Assembly (NCBI RefSeq): GCF_004345265.1
Contig: NZ_SLUM01000028.1
Span: 1 to 50,995, forward strand
Direction: 5' to 3'
DNA: 50,995 nucleotides
Origin: Allofournierella massiliensis
GTDB lineage: Bacteria > Bacillota > Clostridia > Oscillospirales > Ruminococcaceae
A program made the position numbers and the translations under genes. Each line of letters begins with the position of its first letter. Within the stretch, counting starts at the first letter, position 1. The notes beneath the pieces are model-generated. The model ran no database searches and had not been told where the DNA came from. It saw nothing but the letters and a program-made list of their open reading frames with translations. Of this stretch, positions 2,804 through 31,848 are shown in pieces.

Positions 2804-5689
2804 ATGCTGAAAAATGAATGGAAAAAACTGCTGAGCAACAAGCTGATGCTGGTGGTGGTGGTGGCCATCATCGCCATTCCCACCATCTACACCACCCTGT
2901 TTCTGGGCTCCATGTGGGACCCCTACGGCAGCGTGGAAAACCTGCCGGTGGCGCTGGTGAATCAGGATCAGCCGGTGGACTACGAGGGCAAAACGCTGGA
3001 TGTGGGCGCGGAGCTGGTGGATAACCTGCTGGAGGACGCCTCGCTGGACTTCCACCCGGTGAGTGCCGACGACGCGGCCAAGGGCCTTGCGGCAGGGGAT
3101 TATTATATGGTAATCACCATCCCGCAGGATTTCTCGGCCAATGCGGCCACCCTCACCGACGATCAGCCCAAGCAGATGGAGCTGAACTACGAAACAAACC
3201 CCGGCACCAACTACATCGCCTCCAAGCTGAGCGAAACGGCCATGAAGGAGATTCAGGCCAGCGTGCGGGAAGAGGTGACCAAAACCTACGCCGAAACCAT
3301 GTTTGACCAGCTCACCGAAGTGGGCGACGGCATGCAGGAAGCGGCGGACGGCGCGGGCGAAATCCGGGATGGAGCCGACAAGCTGGCGGATGGCAACAAC
3401 ACCATCCGGGAGAACCTGCAGCTTCTGGCAGACAGCACCCTTACCTTCCGCAGCGGCAGCGAGACCCTGACCGAGGGCCTTGCCCAGTATACTCAGGGCG
3501 TGCAGCAGCTGGCGGACGGCGCGAAAAAGCTGGACGACGGCGCAAAGCAGCTGAAGGACGGCGTGGATCAGCTGGGCGCTTCCGCCCCGGCGCTGGCCCA
3601 GGGCGTGGGCGCGCTGAAGGACGGCGCGGATCAGCTGGCCCAGGGCACGGCCCAGGCCAGGACCGGCAGCGACAGCCTGACCGCGGGCGCGGCGCAGGTG
3701 GACGATAACCTGAAAACCCTGAACGAGGGGCTGGGCCAGTTGCAAAGCCAGACCGCCTCTCTGCCGGATTCCGCCTCGGCGCTGGATTCCGGCGCATCCC
3801 AGGCGCTGGAGGGCGCAAAGGCCCTGCAGCAGGGCGCGCAGGGTCTGGCCGCCGGTGCGGAAAAGGCCCGTCAGGGCGCGGATGCCCTGAATCAGGGCCT
3901 GCAAACCCTGAGCGGCAAGTCCGAGGAGCTGAATCAGGGCGCGGCCCAGCTGAAAAACGGGCTGGACGCGCTGGCAGCCGCCGCGGGCGGCTCCACCGAT
4001 ATCACCGGCAGTCTGACCGCTCTGGCCGGGCAGCTGGATCAGGCGGCGCAGGCCGCGCAGGGAGTCACGGTGGCCCCGCAGGATCCCGCGGCCCTGATCC
4101 AGACCATCGCGGACAACACCGCCGCCGCTCAGACGGGCGATCCCGACGCACTGAACGCAGTGCTCACGGCGGCCAGTGAGCTGGCCAATGTGGCGCAGAG
4201 CAACTACAACGACGCAACCACCGCCGACGCGGCCCGCCAGCAGGCGGCCGGAGCCCTCAGCGGCGCGGCCGGTGCGCTGACCAATGCGGCCGGCGGTTCC
4301 GGCTCCGGCGATCTGACCGCGGCCCTCGGCCAGCTGCAGCAGGGCGCGGCTCAGCTGCAAACCGGCCTTTCCGCCTACACCGCCGGTGTGGATCAGGCGG
4401 CAACCGGTTGTGCGGCGCTGGCGGATGAAACCACCGGCCTGCCCGCTCTGAGCGCAGGGGCCGGCGAGCTTTCCACCGGCGCGGGCGATCTGGTGAACGG
4501 CCTTGCCCAGCTGCAGGGCGGCACCAGTCAGCTGGCCCAGCAGGCGCCCCTGCTTACCGGCGGCATCGCCCAGGCGGCCAGCGGCGGCGCGGCCCTGCAG
4601 CAGCAGGGCACCGCGGTGCTCCGTCAGGGCGCGGCCCAGCTGAACAGCGGTCTGGACGCACTGGTTGCCGGCAGCGGCAGCCTGAAGGACGGCATGAGCA
4701 GCCTGAACGGTCAGCTGCCCGCCCTCACCGACGGCGTGGGCCGCCTGCAGCAGGGCACCAAAGACCTGAAGGACGGCACCACTCAGCTGGTGACCGGCGC
4801 GGATACCCTGACACAGAACAGCCCGGCGCTGAACGAGGGCGCGGCCGCCCTCACCGACGGCGCGGGCCAGATCCAGAGCGGCGCCCAGCAGCTGGCGGAC
4901 GGCAGCGGCGAGCTGGCCGACGGCATCGACCAGCTGACCGACGGCGCGAATACACTGGAAAGCAGTCTGGCGGACGGCGCGGACGAAATCCGCTCCACCA
5001 ACACCGGCGACGCGGTGGTGGATATGTTCGCCGCCCCGGTGGTCACCGAGGAAACCCAGATGACTCAGGTGCCCAACAACGGGCACGCCATGGCCCCCTA
5101 CATGATGTCGGTGGCCCTGTGGGTGGGCTGCATCGCCTTCAGCCTGATGTACCCCCTCACCGAGTACGCGGGCAAGCTGAAGAGCGGCACCGCCTGGTGG
5201 CTGAGCAAGGCCTCGGTGCTGTATCCCATCGCAATTCTGCAGGCGCTGGTGATGGTGGGTGCGCTGCACGCCATCAACGGCTTTGATCCCGGCCGCATGG
5301 GCCAGACTCTGCTGGTGGCCTGCGTGGCCTCGGTAACCTTCATGTCGGTGATGTACTTCTTCACCAACCTTCTGGGCAAGGTGGGCAGTTTCCTGATGCT
5401 GGTGTTCATGGTGATCCAGCTGGCCGGCTCGGTGGGCACCTACCCGCTGGAGCTCTCCGGCTCCTTCGTGAAGTACCTGCATGACTGGGTACCCTTCACC
5501 TACACCGTCACCGCCTTCCGCCGGGCCATCTGCGCCGGCGAGGACGTGACCGGCTGCCTTGCCTATCTGGCCGTCTGGCTGGTGGTATTCACCCTGCTGA
5601 CCATTCTGGTGTTCGCGGTGCGCGCAAAGCGCATCAAGGCCGAAAAGCCCACCCTGATGGTCTGGCTGGAGGAGCACCATCTGGCCTGA
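2804..5689 (+). CDS. YhgE/Pip family membrane protein with long GA-repeat stalk
   Basis: About 961 residues. One N-terminal membrane helix (around residues 14-34, LMLVVVVAIIAIPTIY) is followed by the YhgE N-domain (GSMWDPYGSVENLPVALVNQD). A very long extracytoplasmic stalk of repeats of the type G-A-x-x-L-x-x-G (such as QLADGAKKLDDGAKQL) runs from about residue 185 to 735. About five C-terminal membrane helices follow, as in ABC-2 permeases. The family includes the B. subtilis YhgE and L. lactis phage infection protein Pip, and is associated with type VII secretion and phage adsorption. The ATG at 2804 begins the conserved N-terminus; the purine-rich stretch GAGGAAAGGAAG lies rather far upstream (~15 bases). 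Regulation by the divergent TetR is inferred. Confidence 0.9.
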   Translation: MLKNEWKKLLSNKLMLVVVVAIIAIPTIYTTLFLGSMWDPYGSVENLPVALVNQDQPVDYEGKTLDVGAELVDNLLEDASLDFHPVSADDAAKGLAAGDYYMVITIPQDFSANAATLTDDQPKQMELNYETNPGTNYIASKLSETAMKEIQASVREEVTKTYAETMFDQLTEVGDGMQEAADGAGEIRDGADKLADGNNTIRENLQLLADSTLTFRSGSETLTEGLAQYTQGVQQLADGAKKLDDGAKQLKDGVDQLGASAPALAQGVGALKDGADQLAQGTAQARTGSDSLTAGAAQVDDNLKTLNEGLGQLQSQTASLPDSASALDSGASQALEGAKALQQGAQGLAAGAEKARQGADALNQGLQTLSGKSEELNQGAAQLKNGLDALAAAAGGSTDITGSLTALAGQLDQAAQAAQGVTVAPQDPAALIQTIADNTAAAQTGDPDALNAVLTAASELANVAQSNYNDATTADAARQQAAGALSGAAGALTNAAGGSGSGDLTAALGQLQQGAAQLQTGLSAYTAGVDQAATGCAALADETTGLPALSAGAGELSTGAGDLVNGLAQLQGGTSQLAQQAPLLTGGIAQAASGGAALQQQGTAVLRQGAAQLNSGLDALVAGSGSLKDGMSSLNGQLPALTDGVGRLQQGTKDLKDGTTQLVTGADTLTQNSPALNEGAAALTDGAGQIQSGAQQLADGSGELADGIDQLTDGANTLESSLADGADEIRSTNTGDAVVDMFAAPVVTEETQMTQVPNNGHAMAPYMMSVALWVGCIAFSLMYPLTEYAGKLKSGTAWWLSKASVLYPIAILQALVMVGALHAINGFDPGRMGQTLLVACVASVTFMSVMYFFTNLLGKVGSFLMLVFMVIQLAGSVGTYPLELSGSFVKYLHDWVPFTYTVTAFRRAICAGEDVTGCLAYLAVWLVVFTLLTILVFAVRAKRIKAEKPTLMVWLEEHHLA

Positions 5690-5741
5690 CAAGGGCATCG
5701 AAATTCTTCGGTTGCTCCCCTTATCCGGTTCATTCCGGTTC

Positions 5742-5784
5742 AAATCCCCGTTTCGTGCAAAACGCACGAAACGGGGATTTTTTT
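5742..5784 (+). terminator. terminator of the yhgE-like gene
   Basis: A perfect 17-bp stem (AAATCCCCGTTTCGTGC with its complement, 5742-5758 and 5764-5780) followed by a T-run. The rest of the gap before mglB (5785-6009) is A-rich, with AAACGCAC-like repeats. Its best -10 candidate is TAGAAT at 5926-5931, and no convincing -35 was seen. Confidence 0.9.
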
Positions 5785-6009
5785 GCACGAAATGCAAAAA
5801 TGAGCAAAGGAAACCATACAAAACGCACAAAAGTATTAAAAAACAGAAAAGATTTTTGCGAAAGGAGCGAATTTTTTTTATATAAGACAGAAGATTTTTC
5901 TATCGTTTTTGCGCTTCAAAGGCGGTAGAATTTACCACAGAGAAAGCATCCTGCGGGATGCGAAAACGAACGGCAAAGAACCGAATCCAATCACAGGAGG
6001 AAAACGAAA

Positions 6010-7167
6010 ATGAAAAAGAAACTCGCGCTGCTGCTGGCTTCCGTAATGGCCATTGGTATGCTGGCCGGCTGCGGCGGTGCTCCCGCTTCCACCGCTTCCA
6101 CCGCAACCTCCGGCGGCACTTCCACCGCCACCTCCACCGAGGGCGGCACTGCCACCGCCACCAGCGACCTGCAGGTGGACGTATTCTACTATGACTTCTC
6201 CGATGTTTACATCTCCAGCGTGCGCACCGCCATGGACGAGCAGCTGAAGGCCATGGGCATCGAGCCCAAGAACTGGGATGCCGCCGGCAGCCAGCCCACC
6301 CAGACCGATCAGGTCAAGACCGCCATCACCGCCGGTTCCGACCTGCTGATCGTGAACATCGTGGAGACCTCCACCTCCGACCCCGCCAAGGACATCGTGG
6401 AAGCTGCCCGCGCTGCGGACATCCCCGTGATCTTCTTCAACCGTGAGGTTGCCGACAACGACGTGATCAACAGCTATGAGAAGTGCGCCTTCGTTGGCAC
6501 CAACGCTCCCGACGCCGGCCACATGCAGGGCGAGATGATCGGTGAGTACCTGCTGGCCAACTACGACGCAGTTGACCTGAACGGCGACGGCACCATCTCC
6601 TACGTTCTGTTCAAGGGCCAGGAAGGCAACGCCGAGGCCGAAGCCCGTACCCAGTACGCTGTGGAAGACGCCAACAAGCTGCTGACCGAGGGCGGCAAGC
6701 CCGAACTGGCTTACTACGACGCCAGCGCCACCACCAAGTACCTGGTCGACACCGCCGGCAAGTGGAGCGCCCAGGCTGCCAACGACTACATGGTTTCTCT
6801 GCTGGGCTCTTACAACGAAGGCAACAAGAACATGGTTGAGCTGATCATCTGCAACAACGACGGCATGGCCGAGGGCGCCATCTCCGCTCTGCAGAACGTT
6901 GGCTACAACAACGGCGAAGGCACCACCATCATCCCCGTGTTCGGCGTGGACGCCACCGACTCCGCCAAGGCTCTGATCAAGGCCGGCAACATGACCGGTT
7001 CCATCAAGCAGGACGCCGTGGGCATGGCTACCACCATCAACACCCTGGTCAAGAACGTGCAGGACGGCGCTGACCTGATGGCCAACACCGACCAGTTCGT
7101 GGTGGACTCCGACGTGGATAAGATCCGCGTTCCCTACCAGATGTACGACGGCACCTCCGAGGAATAA
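6010..7167 (+). CDS. mglB: galactose/glucose ABC transporter substrate-binding lipoprotein MglB
   Basis: A 385-residue periplasmic-binding-protein type 1. A lipoprotein signal with lipobox LAGC (Cys21) is followed by a Ser/Thr/Ala linker and the galactose-binding fold. MglB-like stretches include VNIVETSTSDPAKDIV, IPVIFFNRE and the calcium-loop-like DLNGDGTISYVLFKGQEGN. It would capture galactose or glucose outside the membrane and deliver it to MglAC. A strong AGGAGG lies 9 bases before the ATG. It is the first gene of mglBAC; codon use is that of a highly expressed gene. Two paralogues lie downstream (13682-14605 and 14562-15626). Confidence 0.93.
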   Translation: MKKKLALLLASVMAIGMLAGCGGAPASTASTATSGGTSTATSTEGGTATATSDLQVDVFYYDFSDVYISSVRTAMDEQLKAMGIEPKNWDAAGSQPTQTDQVKTAITAGSDLLIVNIVETSTSDPAKDIVEAARAADIPVIFFNREVADNDVINSYEKCAFVGTNAPDAGHMQGEMIGEYLLANYDAVDLNGDGTISYVLFKGQEGNAEAEARTQYAVEDANKLLTEGGKPELAYYDASATTKYLVDTAGKWSAQAANDYMVSLLGSYNEGNKNMVELIICNNDGMAEGAISALQNVGYNNGEGTTIIPVFGVDATDSAKALIKAGNMTGSIKQDAVGMATTINTLVKNVQDGADLMANTDQFVVDSDVDKIRVPYQMYDGTSEE

Positions 7168-28379: not shown

Positions 28380-29000
28380 TTACAAATTCTCCCACTGGGA
28401 AAAATCAATGGGCTTGCCGTGGTCGTAGGTGGTAAGATCCTTCTCGTCGATGGGGCGCACCACCCGGCAGGGGGTGCCGAAGGCCACCACGTTTGCGGGA
28501 ATGTCCCGGCTGACCACGCTGCCCGCGCCGATCACCGAGTTTTCCCCGATGGTCACACCCGGCAGGAGGATGCAGCCCGCGCCGATCCACACGTTTTTTT
28601 CAACGGTCACCGGCTTGTTGTACTGGGCCGCCAGCCGGCGCAGGCCCGGGTGGATGGGATGGGCGGCGGTGGAGATGGTCACATTGGGGCCGATCATCAC
28701 ATTGTCGCCCAGATAAACGTGGGTGTCGTCCACCAGCGTCAGGTTGAAGTTTGCATAAACATTGTTGCCCAGATGGGTGTAGCGGCCCCAGTTGGCGTTG
28801 AAGGGCGGCTCAAAAAAGCAGTTTTCGCCCACCTCGGCAAAGATGCGGGGCAGAAGGGCCTGATGGCCTTCCATGTCCCGGGGGTCCAGCTGGTTGTACT
28901 GGTGAATCAGCGCCCGGCATTCCATCTGCTCGCGGAAAAGCTCCGGGGAGTTGCAGCTGTAAAGCTCGCCGGTGTGCATGCGGGGTTCCAGTTCTGCCAT
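28380..29000 (-). CDS. sugar O-acetyltransferase (maltose/galactoside acetyltransferase type)
   Basis: 206 residues. N-terminal Mac domain (MAELEPRMHTGELYSC), then the left-handed beta-helix with hexapeptide repeats (NVWIGAGCILLPGVTIG, SVIGAGSVVSRDIP) and the catalytic His region TISTAAHPIHPGLR. Transfers acetyl from acetyl-CoA to a sugar; the substrate cannot be told from sequence. The ATG at 29000 has AAGGAG 8 bases upstream; a GTG three codons earlier is less likely. It lies 33 bases after the racemase gene, probably one transcript. Confidence 0.9.
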   Translation of the reverse strand: MAELEPRMHTGELYSCNSPELFREQMECRALIHQYNQLDPRDMEGHQALLPRIFAEVGENCFFEPPFNANWGRYTHLGNNVYANFNLTLVDDTHVYLGDNVMIGPNVTISTAAHPIHPGLRRLAAQYNKPVTVEKNVWIGAGCILLPGVTIGENSVIGAGSVVSRDIPANVVAFGTPCRVVRPIDEKDLTTYDHGKPIDFSQWENL

Positions 29001-29033
29001 GGAAAACACTCCTTTTTTCGGTGTTCAGGGTGC

Positions 29034-29744
29034 TTAAAAACCAATGGGGGTCTTGCCGCAGGCCAGCAGGGTTTCCTCGGCCAGCACCTCGGTGCTGTCG
29101 ATGAAAAAGTCGTCCAGCCCTTCGTCCCGCTTGATGAGCGAAAGCTCGGTGCAGCCCAGCACCGCCTTTTCGCAGCCCGCGGCACGCAGCTCGGCGGCGA
29201 TCTCCATGAAAATCTTCATGTCGGCCCGCTGGCCCTTTTTGATCTGGTCGTAGATGATGTTCATCAGCTGGGTCTGGCGGGGCAGGGAAGGAATGGCAAA
29301 ATCGATGCCCTCGGCCCGGCACATGCGCTGGTAGGTGCAGCTGCCCACGGTGCCGCTGGTGGCAAGAATGCCCAGCCGGGTGCAGCCCTGCGCCTTGGCG
29401 TGCTGCACGGTCAGCCGCACCATGTTCAGGATGGGCACCGGCAAACTGCGGGCCAGCCGGTCGTAAAAATAATGGGCGGTGTTGCAGGGGATGGCCAGAA
29501 TGGTGGCCCCGTATTTCACCAGCATCTCCGCGTCCCGCTCCATCTGGGCGAAGGGATCGTCCTCGCTTTCGCCCAGAATGTAGGCGGTGCGATCCGGAGT
29601 GGAAGCCCGGCTGGAGATCACGATGTCCAGGTGATCCTGATCACACTGGGCGGGGGTGTGCTCGGTGAGCATCTGATAGAAATACACGGTGCTCATGGGG
29701 CCGAGCCCACCCAAAATACCCAAAACGGGATGTTCGTTCTGCAT
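29034..29744 (-). CDS. aspartate/glutamate racemase family protein
   Basis: About 236 residues. Two-cysteine, cofactor-independent racemase fold: GILGGLGPMSTVYFY at the start, first catalytic Cys in AIPCNTAHYFY, second in AVLGCTELSLI. Probably makes D-aspartate or D-glutamate for the cell wall or for export. The ATG at 29744 is chosen because a promoter -10 lies just before the alternative TTG at 29801, which would be leaderless. The start remains somewhat uncertain, as the ribosome site is weak. Confidence 0.85.
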   Translation of the reverse strand: MQNEHPVLGILGGLGPMSTVYFYQMLTEHTPAQCDQDHLDIVISSRASTPDRTAYILGESEDDPFAQMERDAEMLVKYGATILAIPCNTAHYFYDRLARSLPVPILNMVRLTVQHAKAQGCTRLGILATSGTVGSCTYQRMCRAEGIDFAIPSLPRQTQLMNIIYDQIKKGQRADMKIFMEIAAELRAAGCEKAVLGCTELSLIKRDEGLDDFFIDSTEVLAEETLLACGKTPIGF

Positions 29745-29808
29745 GGCCTGATTCCACGCCCCTTTGCTCAGATTGGCGGGCAGAACAGCTGCCGCCTGCA
29801 ATTTATTT

Positions 29809-29837
29809 ATTATATCACCTTTGCGCCCTCAATACAA
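29809..29837 (-). promoter_or_regulatory. promoter of the racemase-acetyltransferase operon
   Basis: On the minus strand: TTGTAT (29837-29832), a 17-base spacer, and consensus TATAAT (29814-29809). The transcript would start near 29802. Confidence 0.7.
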
Positions 29838-29841
29838 TTAC

Positions 29842-29902
29842 AAGGCGGTGGCAGCCGGTGGGGAAAAGGCGGTGGCAGCCGATGGGGAAAATGCGGCGGT
29901 GC
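29842..29902. repeat. 24-base tandem repeat, about 2.5 units
   Basis: The unit AAGGCGGTGGCAGCCGGTGG plus GGAA recurs at 29842 and 29866 with one change; a degenerate third unit begins at 29890. It lies between the racemase promoter and the terminator of the large RNA candidate. Confidence 0.7.
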
Positions 29903-29908
29903 AGACAC

Positions 29909-29945
29909 AAAAAACCGCGGGATGCCGGACACGGCACCCCGCGGA
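29909..29945 (-). terminator. terminator of the large non-coding RNA candidate
   Basis: On the minus strand the stem CCGCGGGGTGCC / GGCATCCCGCGG (29944-29933 and 29926-29915) is followed by six T. It is a textbook Rho-independent terminator with no protein gene in front of it. Confidence 0.88.
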
Positions 29946-30819
29946 GAAGTCATTCAGTACATTGGTCTGCCCTCGATTTAGATGGATTTAAAACGCTTCA
30001 TCAATACGACTTTCTCGTCATACATATCGATTCACGTTCCTTTGCCATATACCGGCAGGCTTTGTCGCTTCACATTGCCTGCATCCCTGGTGGTCTACGG
30101 GCAAACATTCAGCACATTGGCGTTATCCTCATTTCGTACGATTTGATAAACTCAGATTTCAAAGCGCCTTGAAATGGTACGCGAAACATTGCTTAGTACA
30201 TTGGACTCAAAGCCTCTTCTGGTTTGATTCGGATGAAAAGAAACATATCAAAAAAGGATTTCTACCGTTTTATTGCTCTGGTTTGCTGGTGATCAAAGCC
30301 GTTTACTTGGATGGATTTGGTCGAATGCGTCTTGTGGTTCCGTTACTGTTGTTCGGCTTCCATGGCTTAAAAGAGGTTGCAGACAAGACCTAAACTCAAC
30401 TTTTATTTCCTTGGTGCGAAGTGATTCAGAACACTCGCATCGCTCTTGCTCCATACCAGGCTAAAATACCAATTTCCTCACATCAAACGATGCTTTAACC
30501 GTTTTTGGTACGATCCATCGGGATCAAATCCACTTTCGGTTTTTTTATAAAAACTGCTTGTTGGGCAGGGATGGGATCTACACGCTATTTGAATCTTATT
30601 CCGAAAATCCAAAACCTTTTTGGGTGTCGCCGTCTGGTTTTTCACTGTTGCTACAGGTTCTTTTGGAATCATTCTCCTTCGACCTGCGGTTTTTTCCGAT
30701 CCATCGATCCTGGAAATACCGGATCATCCGGTTCATTTGATTCATTTGGAATCCTGTGTTCCAGCTTGGCCTTTGGCATTCAAGAAATCATCTTGCTGTG
30801 AAAAAGTGATTTCGGGGAT

Positions 30820-30870
30820 TCAGCGGCAGGTCCCATCCTGCCAGATCTGGCCGGGTTCTTCAATTACCAT
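30820..30870 (-). CDS. possible 16-residue peptide inside the large RNA
   Basis: Near the 5' end of the RNA candidate, an ATG at 30870 opens a 16-codon frame (MVIEEPGQIWQDGTCR) behind AAGGAGAGCAGGA. It is too short for codon statistics. It could be a leader peptide or chance. Confidence 0.2.
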   Translation of the reverse strand: MVIEEPGQIWQDGTCR

Positions 30871-30975
30871 GATGGTCCTGCTCTCCTTTCTTTCCTCGTT
30901 GCGGCTCTTCCTGTTATTCTGAACAGGTTGCCTAGAGTTTCTTGACCTTGGTTTTATCTCCCTTGGTGTGTCTAT

Positions 30976-31004
30976 AATATACCACACAAAAAGCCCGGTG
31001 TATA
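30976..31004 (-). promoter_or_regulatory. promoter of the large RNA candidate
   Basis: Minus strand TATACA (31004-30999), 17-base spacer, TATATT (30981-30976). The start would be near 30969. Confidence 0.55.
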
Positions 31005-31052
31005 TTGACAAATTAGATATACTTATGATGTATTATTTGTATATTTGTTGCA

Positions 31053-31082
31053 TTGAAAAATGCGGGGATTTGGTGCTATAAT
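31053..31082 (+). promoter_or_regulatory. promoter of a candidate very small RNA
   Basis: TTGAAA (31053-31058), 18-base spacer, consensus TATAAT (31077-31082). A terminator-like hairpin begins only 13 bases after the -10. Confidence 0.6.
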
Positions 31083-31088
31083 AAAAAT

Positions 31089-31134
31089 GTTGGAGTGCAT
31101 CCCGGCATCCTTGCTGTGGGTGCACTGTTTTTTT
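31089..31134 (+). ncRNA. candidate ~46-nt RNA (promoter plus terminator)
   Basis: From the predicted start, a short 5' piece leads into the stem GTGCATCCC / GGGTGCAC (31095-31103 and 31118-31125, one bulge) and then seven T. Nothing lies between promoter and terminator, so the product would be little more than the hairpin. The gap from here to the tRNA promoter (31135-31232) is A-rich with no clear feature. Confidence 0.4.
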
Positions 31135-31232
31135 GCAGCCGGGGCAAGCGAAAAGCCGCTGCTATTTAATGTATTATATATAGGGGGAGAAAAAAGCCTG
31201 CAAAAAACTTCAAAAAAATTTTCAAAAATCTG

Positions 31233-31261
31233 TTGACAAACCGTATATCCGGGGGTATAAT
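31233..31261 (+). promoter_or_regulatory. consensus promoter of the tRNA cluster
   Basis: TTGACA (31233-31238), exactly 17 bases, TATAAT (31256-31261): a perfect sigma-A consensus, with an A-rich upstream stretch like an UP element. The start would be about 12 bases before tRNA-Glu. Confidence 0.92.
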
Positions 31262-31279
31262 GATGAAGCTGTCAGATGT

Positions 31280-31354
31280 GGCCCGTTGGTCAAGCGGTCA
31301 AGACGGCGGCCTCTCACGCCGCAAACGGGAGTTCGATTCTCCCACGGGTCACCA
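31280..31354 (+). tRNA. tRNA-Glu (anticodon CUC)
   Basis: 75 nt with encoded CCA. The acceptor stem GGCCCGT pairs with ACGGGTC. The anticodon stem GCGGC/GCCGC holds the loop CTCTCAC, anticodon CUC. First gene of the Glu-Lys-Asn cluster. Confidence 0.97.
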
Positions 31355-31359
31355 TATAT

Positions 31360-31435
<76 letters not shown>

Positions 31436-31440
31436 TTTGT

Positions 31441-31516
31441 TCCTCCTTAGCTCAGTCGGTAGAGCATGCGGCTGTTAACCGCAGGGTCGTTGGTTCGAGC
31501 CCAACAGGGGGAGCCA
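31441..31516 (+). tRNA. tRNA-Asn (anticodon GUU)
   Basis: 76 nt with CCA. The acceptor TCCTCCT pairs with AGGGGGA using one G-U pair; loop CTGTTAA, anticodon GUU. Last gene of the cluster. Its 3' 31 bases recur at 31781-31811. Confidence 0.97.
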
Positions 31517-31780: not shown

Positions 31781-31811
31781 GGTCGTTGGTTCGAGCCGGG
31801 CAGGGGGAGCC
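31781..31811 (+). repeat. copy of the tRNA-Asn 3' end
   Basis: 28 of 31 bases match 31485-31515 (variable loop to acceptor stem, last CCA base lost). The three changes are adjacent, in the T-stem 3' arm (CAA to GGG). Confidence 0.9.
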
Positions 31812-31848
31812 GGGGCGGGCGGCGTGCTCACTCAAAAAGCAACCGAAT

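Follow-up and report, generated by a model that had tools for sequence, protein, structure and literature searches.

Two-codon minigenes, which comprise an AUG, one further codon and a stop behind a Shine-Dalgarno (SD) sequence, are exemplified by lambda bar, where inhibition by the minigene is accompanied by drop-off of peptidyl-tRNA. Single minigenes disturb or couple translation, and bacteria use HPF and other proteins to park their ribosomes. Leader-peptide attenuators carry a short open reading frame (ORF) with an SD near a terminator, and MgtL has an E-P N-terminus.

Titles among the references of PMC10192219 document inhibition by minigenes and drop-off of peptidyl-tRNA, and excerpts of PMC8708949 describe two-codon minigenes that are single or paired in leaders or genes (the LEE1, ycbK, and axe-txe leaders) as well as leader mini-ORFs that protect or couple messages. 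D/E-rich N-termini (D/E runs) destabilise ribosomes according to an excerpt of PMC9718836. GOLLD and ROOL are presented as large RNAs, and raiA RNA is named, in an excerpt of PMC12286853.

Here, we describe a locus in a 50,995-nucleotide stretch of the Allofournierella massiliensis genome (contig NZ_SLUM01000028.1; hereafter the window), in which an initial annotation had proposed a large structured non-coding RNA. Comparison of sequences indicates that the window RNA very probably belongs to a class of RNA units found in its order. Members of the class comprise a promoter-like start, a short ORF, and one to six SD-preceded minigenes of two or three codons in the context A..CC[A/G]AUG, and this anatomy of a minigene-array RNA is well supported.

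Results

Boundaries and Structure of the RNA Unit

The RNA unit lies on the minus strand (Table 1), and its conserved span in the alignment extends from 5' of the -10 to the terminator inclusive, with a variable middle. We infer that it is a transcript in its own right and that it is translated. The scan of the minus strand identified an extended -10, whose column reads TATA(T/G/A)T in relatives, and a weak -35 (9/12 matches); these features and the 13-pair hairpin with its T run bear out the promoter and terminator that had been placed at the two ends. The AT-rich island in GC-rich DNA was also confirmed, with a GC content (200-base windows) of 0.395–0.48 at 30000–30999 versus 0.56–0.66 at 29000–29899. 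The longest ORF fully within the unit on the minus strand encodes 64 aa, in keeping with the absence of a credible protein frame, although the conserved short ORFs had been overlooked. The claim of no coding capacity fails because very short ORFs with SDs (one of 15–16 codons and several of two codons) are kept across genera. Conservation of a frame, which had been named as evidence against a non-coding RNA, was thus found for very short frames but not for an ordinary protein gene.

Table 1. Positions of predicted features of the RNA unit in the window.
Feature	Position	Strand	Remarks
RNA unit, ~1063 nt, predicted start to terminator end	29909..30971	-	Homologue conservation; start predicted from the -10
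Extended -10, hexamer TATATT, TG one base upstream (TGTGGTATATT)	30976..30981	-	Promoter scan; weak -35
SD of the 16-codon ORF, AAGGAG	30883..30888	-	12 nt 5' of its AUG
16-codon ORF, MVIEEPGQIWQDGTCR	30820..30870	-	E-P motif kept across genera
SD of minigene 1, GAGG	30213..30216	-	
Minigene 1, AUG UAC UAA	30193..30201	-	Context AGTCCA
SD of minigene 2, GAGG	30127..30130	-	
Minigene 2, AUG UGC UGA	30109..30117	-	Homologues UGC UAA, UGG UAG, UGG UAA
GTTTGCCC, 3' of minigene 2	30099..30106	-	Predicted pairing with 29972-29965 (SD and spacer of minigene 3)
SD of minigene 3, GAGG	29971..29974	-	
Minigene 3, AUG UAC UGA	29954..29962	-	Stop 9 nt 5' of the terminator stem
Intrinsic terminator hairpin, 13 pairs	29915..29944	-	T run 29914-29909

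RNAalifold predicted 72 pairs in an alignment of 11 members, 13 of them with a double change. For 58 chosen pairs in nine helices, 96.9% of cells were paired compared to 38.5–48.7% in slid versions, and double-change cells numbered 39 versus 16.0 in shuffled and at most 8 in slid versions, with the structure derived from the same alignment of the 11 related sequences. Further pair types in these sequences numbered 30 versus 30.2 in shuffles, 328 of 500 of which reached 30, and no double changes were detected in a rumen set of five RNAs. Covariation thus lends the helices modest support, and the many local stems that had been proposed are borne out in part. The predicted GTTTGCCC helix is paired in 97.7% of cells in the 11 sequences, with no double changes. 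A conserved start-stop AUG UGA at 30070–30075 (-) lies in a conserved hairpin (GCAGGC..GCCUGC), has no clear SD, and is absent in G132.

Two-Codon Minigenes

The three window minigenes share the fixed A..CC[A/G]AUG context. Unbiased figures come from eight representatives found by BLAST: the window RNA (win), G005, G277, G026, G132, G115, G018a, and G018b. In these, an SD followed by AUG, codon, and stop occurs 17 times in sense and 0 times in antisense, compared to a mean of 0.74 (sd 0.87, max 5) in 500 dinucleotide shuffles of the same sequences; G018a and G018b contribute one minigene each, numbers that were equalled by 35 and 36 of the 500 shuffles and are individually not significant. CC occupies -3/-2 in 17/17 minigenes and A occupies -6 in 16/17. 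Among long-ORF starts of the same DNA, taken from mechanical ORFs with a minimum of 120 codons on either strand and not from annotated genes, CC was present in 22/157.

A wider set of 34 RNAs, many closely related and some found via a pattern requiring CCAATGTACTRA, yielded 73 unique minigenes with one or two codons after the AUG, 93% of them with A at -6, 97% with C at -3, and 96% with C at -2. The second codon is UAC in 46, with 17 other codons sharing the remaining 27, and the stops are UGA (37), UAA (30), and UAG (6). The use of all three stops together with the variation of the second codon indicates that the start and the stop are the kept features. Where A..CC[ACG]AUG occurs, a stop stands as the third codon in 56/75, many of the RNAs having been found by a stop-ending pattern. 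G214 and G267 carry six and five minigenes, respectively, with UAC, CAG, GUU, AUC, GGC, and ACC as second codons. Minigene 2 reads UGC UGA in the window and G026, UGG UAG in G277, UGG UAA in G156, and UGC UAA in G005, where neither an SD nor CC was recognised. A looser pattern matched nine sites in the window's own genome, three of them within the window RNA, and one in the reversed control.

Longer pairing with the 16S tail was rejected as the cause of CC at -3/-2, as its effect is slight (mean duplex energy of -9.8 kcal/mol for minigenes versus -8.1 for shuffled spacers and -9.0 for ordinary starts). Simple minigenes do not account for the strict A..CC context.

The 16-Codon ORF and E-P Peptides

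Counterparts of the 16-codon ORF comprise 15–16 codons and are preceded by AAGGAG or AAAGGAG, with a weaker SD in G018a. They encode MVIEEPVQFWQDGTCR in G003, MVREEPKHFGQGGSCR in G277, MVKEEPKHFRQGGSCR in G026, MSNTEPVQQWQARGR in G132, MKIEEPVQFWQVCAD in G115, and MFSDTTPAQNGRLGSC and MFSDTTPAQQRRLGYC in G018. First ORFs of more distant arrays start MATEPNHFSS, MAVDPVHFSS, MKTGAEPVSI, MELEPNQTST, MASEPQSECI, and MDSEQFQSAV. The peptide begins MxxE(E)P in most groups, a start that we take to resemble the N-terminus of MgtL, and the E-P peptides show synonymous codon changes. Proline is encoded by CCC, CCG, or CCA and the acid by GAA, GAG, or GAT. Peptide length ranges from 8 to 25 codons among relatives and the sequence is very divergent. 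The peptide ORF of the rumen RNAs (MDIEEPIH) is last, not first; the first ORFs in g16 and g63 lack E-P, and no first ORF was recognised in g143. Each G018 copy (L047, about 4700–6040) also contains, as judged by eye, an 11-codon ORF that starts AUG UAC (MYQHFKDFREI and MYRILKYLLEF).

Taxonomic Distribution and Relation to Known RNA Families

The homologue search that had been suggested recovered relatives in the genus, the family, and other genera. Blastn matched the RNA unit once in its own genome and in 6/7 genomes of the genus, own counted, with full-length identities of 95% (G004 and G002), 94% (G003), and 71% (G006) and as three pieces in G005; it was not found by blastn in G001, an 88%-complete genome of the genus. 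Matches were obtained in 19/297 family genomes, 16 of which are considered credible because those in G079, G229, and G241 extend over just 26–35 nt and contain no family motif, and these three were rejected as members. Length among relatives ranges from 0.39 to 1.9 kb, and in G018 the RNA is present twice in tandem (512 and 507 nt), both copies having a promoter-like start and a terminator.

A search with the pattern GAGGN{4,9}CCAATGTACTRA identified 42 sites in 27/396 family genomes and 0 in the reversed control. The G271 match (L072) was rejected as a member since, by eye, it resembles a transposase gene. Within the order, 16/346 genomes matched (control 1), and 8 of these 16 were among 298 genomes from outside the family, affiliated with families f18, f19, and f22, in which arrays are present. 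Elsewhere in the taxonomic class, outside the order, 1/371 genomes matched versus 3 with the reversed control, and there is therefore no sign of the RNA class there by this pattern. Because other second codons escape the pattern, genome counts that rest on it are minimum values. L095 and L199, with a single minigene each, were left out of the members.

The 3'-end motif was detected in 23 stretches of genome contigs, 7 of them named Lachnospiraceae, and relatives named in such contigs include Gemmiger sp. An50, An87, An194, and An120, several Candidatus Fournierella, and one Candidatus Faecalibacterium. Five of these seven, the rumen loci L082, L092, L094, L097, and L098, have in common a 392–394-nt RNA with M-G-N, M-Y, and MDIEEPIH ORFs. 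Both other families of the order and rumen genomes named Lachnospiraceae thus contain related RNAs, whose minigenes number one to six. The window RNA was unmatched in 50,697 phage and 72,556 plasmid records. The minigene pattern occurred at 51 loci in viral contigs, at one site apiece, and the strict motif was found 54 times on both strands, which is hardly above the sites that retrieved these viral loci.

Rfam models at gathering level matched only tRNA and 5S rRNA in the whole window, and a search of 29800–31300 with E up to 5 returned one unlikely match and none to GOLLD, ROOL, OLE, or HEARO. No Rfam family was detected on the RNA itself at 14 relatives' loci; the families at the loci tested were only tRNA, 5S, RNase P, T-box, and 6S. 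These results argue against the distant membership in the GOLLD/ROOL group that had been envisaged and agree with the statement that the sequence fits no named class. The suggestion of a large RNA, perhaps of a new class, is upheld with respect to the conserved ~1.06-kb unit, its promoter-like and terminator ends, and some covarying helices, but the RNA is not simply non-coding.

Genomic Context and the 3' End

Genes for tRNA-Glu, -Lys, and -Asn are located at 31280–31516 (+). ARAGORN searches of 17 relatives' regions revealed that tRNA genes adjoin the RNA in G002–G004 only; they lie ~2.8 kb away in G006 and several kb away in G115, G193, and G250, and none were identified in the other 10 regions. 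The proposed divergence from a tRNA cluster therefore describes the window and G002–G004 but not the other loci, and the tRNA neighbourhood of the RNA is incidental.

Several other features were observed on the plus strand. The segment 31053–31133 contains a promoter-like TTGAAA-18-TATAAT followed directly by a hairpin (31105–31123) and a T run, and is a candidate for a tiny divergent terminated transcript; similar layouts with different hairpins were seen by eye at other loci. Positions 31781–31812 resemble, by eye, the 3' part of tRNA-Asn (31441–31516) and may perhaps be a decayed copy of it or an old integration scar. The window starts with the 3' part of a 5S rRNA gene (1–87) and tRNA-Lys (297–372).

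Downstream of the RNA in the window, an Asp/Glu racemase gene and the methionyl-tRNA synthetase gene metG are encoded on the same strand (Pfam, window only), and a 24-nt GC-rich repeat in two tandem copies (29842–29889) lies between the RNA terminator and the racemase gene. Racemase and metG are also downstream in G005, G006, G026, G132, and G052 (G052 by eye). The downstream ORF differs between groups and is on the opposite strand in G277, G156, G214, L082, and L097. A downstream gene conserved on the same strand was not found across the neighbours of 19 members, where genes differ and are often on the opposite strand. In G172, six two-codon minigenes follow a gene whose 174-aa product has both HPF domains (L075 566–1090), and the HPF domain was detected in 44/60 family genomes; linkage to HPF as a rule was rejected because 0/30 other HPF loci scanned, of the 44 found, carry the minigene motif. 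The array is absent in G172's genus mate. A DUF1292 gene is located divergently upstream in Ruminococcus-like members, including L073, L074, and L077, and in these three loci 6S RNA genes are near the arrays.

An intrinsic terminator is located close 3' of the last short ORF in most members. This ORF ends either 4–11 nt ahead of the terminal stem or within it in 24/34 RNAs (G214 and G267 with an assumed UUG start). In G115, G193, and G250, an ORF encoding MKPII with a very close SD ends 7 nt before the stem, as judged by eye after rejection by the script. The last short ORF is at least 42 nt from the end hairpin in 7/34 RNAs (G149, G137, G390, G172, G507, G596, and G583), the ends of the G596 and G583 RNAs being arbitrary cuts.

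Discussion

It is quite possible, if short of probable, that these RNAs form a new class on which ribosomes repeatedly initiate and abort, such that the product would be the act of translation and not a protein. Every ORF of the RNA would be expected to abort, because peptidyl-tRNA drops off at two-codon minigenes in E. coli and ribosomes are destabilised by acidic N-termini. Compared with D/E runs, the E-P start with its one or two acids is a weak candidate for such a destabiliser. Initiating ribosomes would be drawn into repeated futile two-codon cycles on the RNA. A mechanism of the sink or sensor kind is possible but not probable: as a sink, the RNA would leave fewer free ribosomes or less initiator tRNA or tRNA-Tyr, and as a sensor, it could report ribosome or tRNA supply via refolding near the terminator, through the last ORF. 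More tentatively still, the chain of minigenes, usually together with an acidic-proline leader peptide, may function by abortive translation to throttle or monitor translation. Also counted against this reading are the HPF linkage, which is a single case, the E-P motif, which is missing in g16 and g63, the lack of a recognised first ORF in g143, the lone minigene in each of G018a and G018b, and the strict A..CC context.

The position of the last short ORF close to or inside the terminal stem in 24/34 RNAs, with three more by eye, would also fit a long regulated 5' leader, in which a ribosome on that ORF masks the stem and sets read-through into downstream genes. The same-strand racemase and metG genes in the window, G005, G006, G026, G132, and G052 point the same way. 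However, the downstream ORF varies by group and is reversed in five members, and the last ORF is distant from the hairpin in 7/34 RNAs (two with arbitrary ends), so we regard a leader or attenuator as unlikely. GOLLD, ROOL, OLE, or HEARO in distant, phage-related form would account for a length of about 1 kb, AT-richness, and the tRNA genes near the RNA in the window, but is highly improbable given that the search with E up to 5 listed none of the four, that the ORFs are conserved, that lengths in relatives range from 0.39 to 1.9 kb, and that the window RNA had no match in the phage and plasmid records.

The very strict flanks (A at -6, CC at -3/-2), the preference for UAC (46/73), and the modest covariation would be compatible with a structural or protein-binding RNA in which A..CCAAUGUACURA recurs as a site for binding and the frame is a by-product. 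The G115 and G018 RNAs in fact close with similar strings (ACTCCAAT and AAACCAAT) in which the AUG is absent at that place, but these strings sit inside AUG-started ORFs (MKPII and MTPII). Moreover, joint changes of the second codon and the stop leave the frame short, and the SD is kept, which makes a binding motif rather improbable. We give equally little credence to an mRNA whose product is the short E-P peptide and whose minigenes protect or pace the message. The peptide motif is kept in several genera, and a six-codon mini-ORF shields an mRNA from RNase E in an excerpt of PMC8708949, yet the peptide is highly variable in both sequence and length, is last in the rumen RNAs, and is lost or unrecognised in g16, g63, and g143.

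If repeated abortive translation is the function, these RNAs would provide gut and rumen bacteria with an RNA-based control over their supply of ribosomes or tRNA. The anatomy alone implies that a seemingly non-coding RNA can be a polycistronic message with ORFs below gene-finder size, and the minigene-array RNA offers start-site ribosome profiling a convenient test case.

We found no precedent for an RNA with a conserved series of two-codon minigenes in the open-access literature searched, and no mention of Ruminococcus, Faecalibacterium, or Lachnospira-type hosts was seen in excerpts of two genome-wide non-coding RNA surveys. The window RNA resembles GOLLD and ROOL in being large and in having tRNA genes near it, but differs in its lack of an Rfam match, its conserved short ORFs, its chromosomal loci, and a tRNA adjacency that is not general. 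One array 3' of an HPF gene recalls raiA-motif RNA, although this is one case and there is no Rfam match. With leader-peptide attenuators such as MgtL, the window RNA shares a short SD-led ORF near a terminator and an E-P N-terminus, whereas the downstream gene is not conserved and the tandem G018 copies have their own promoters. The likeness to two-codon minigenes extends to the AUG, the single codon, the stop, and the SD, and release of peptidyl-tRNA would be expected in both; however, known minigenes are single or paired, whereas those described here form a conserved series on an RNA of their own in a fixed A..CC context.
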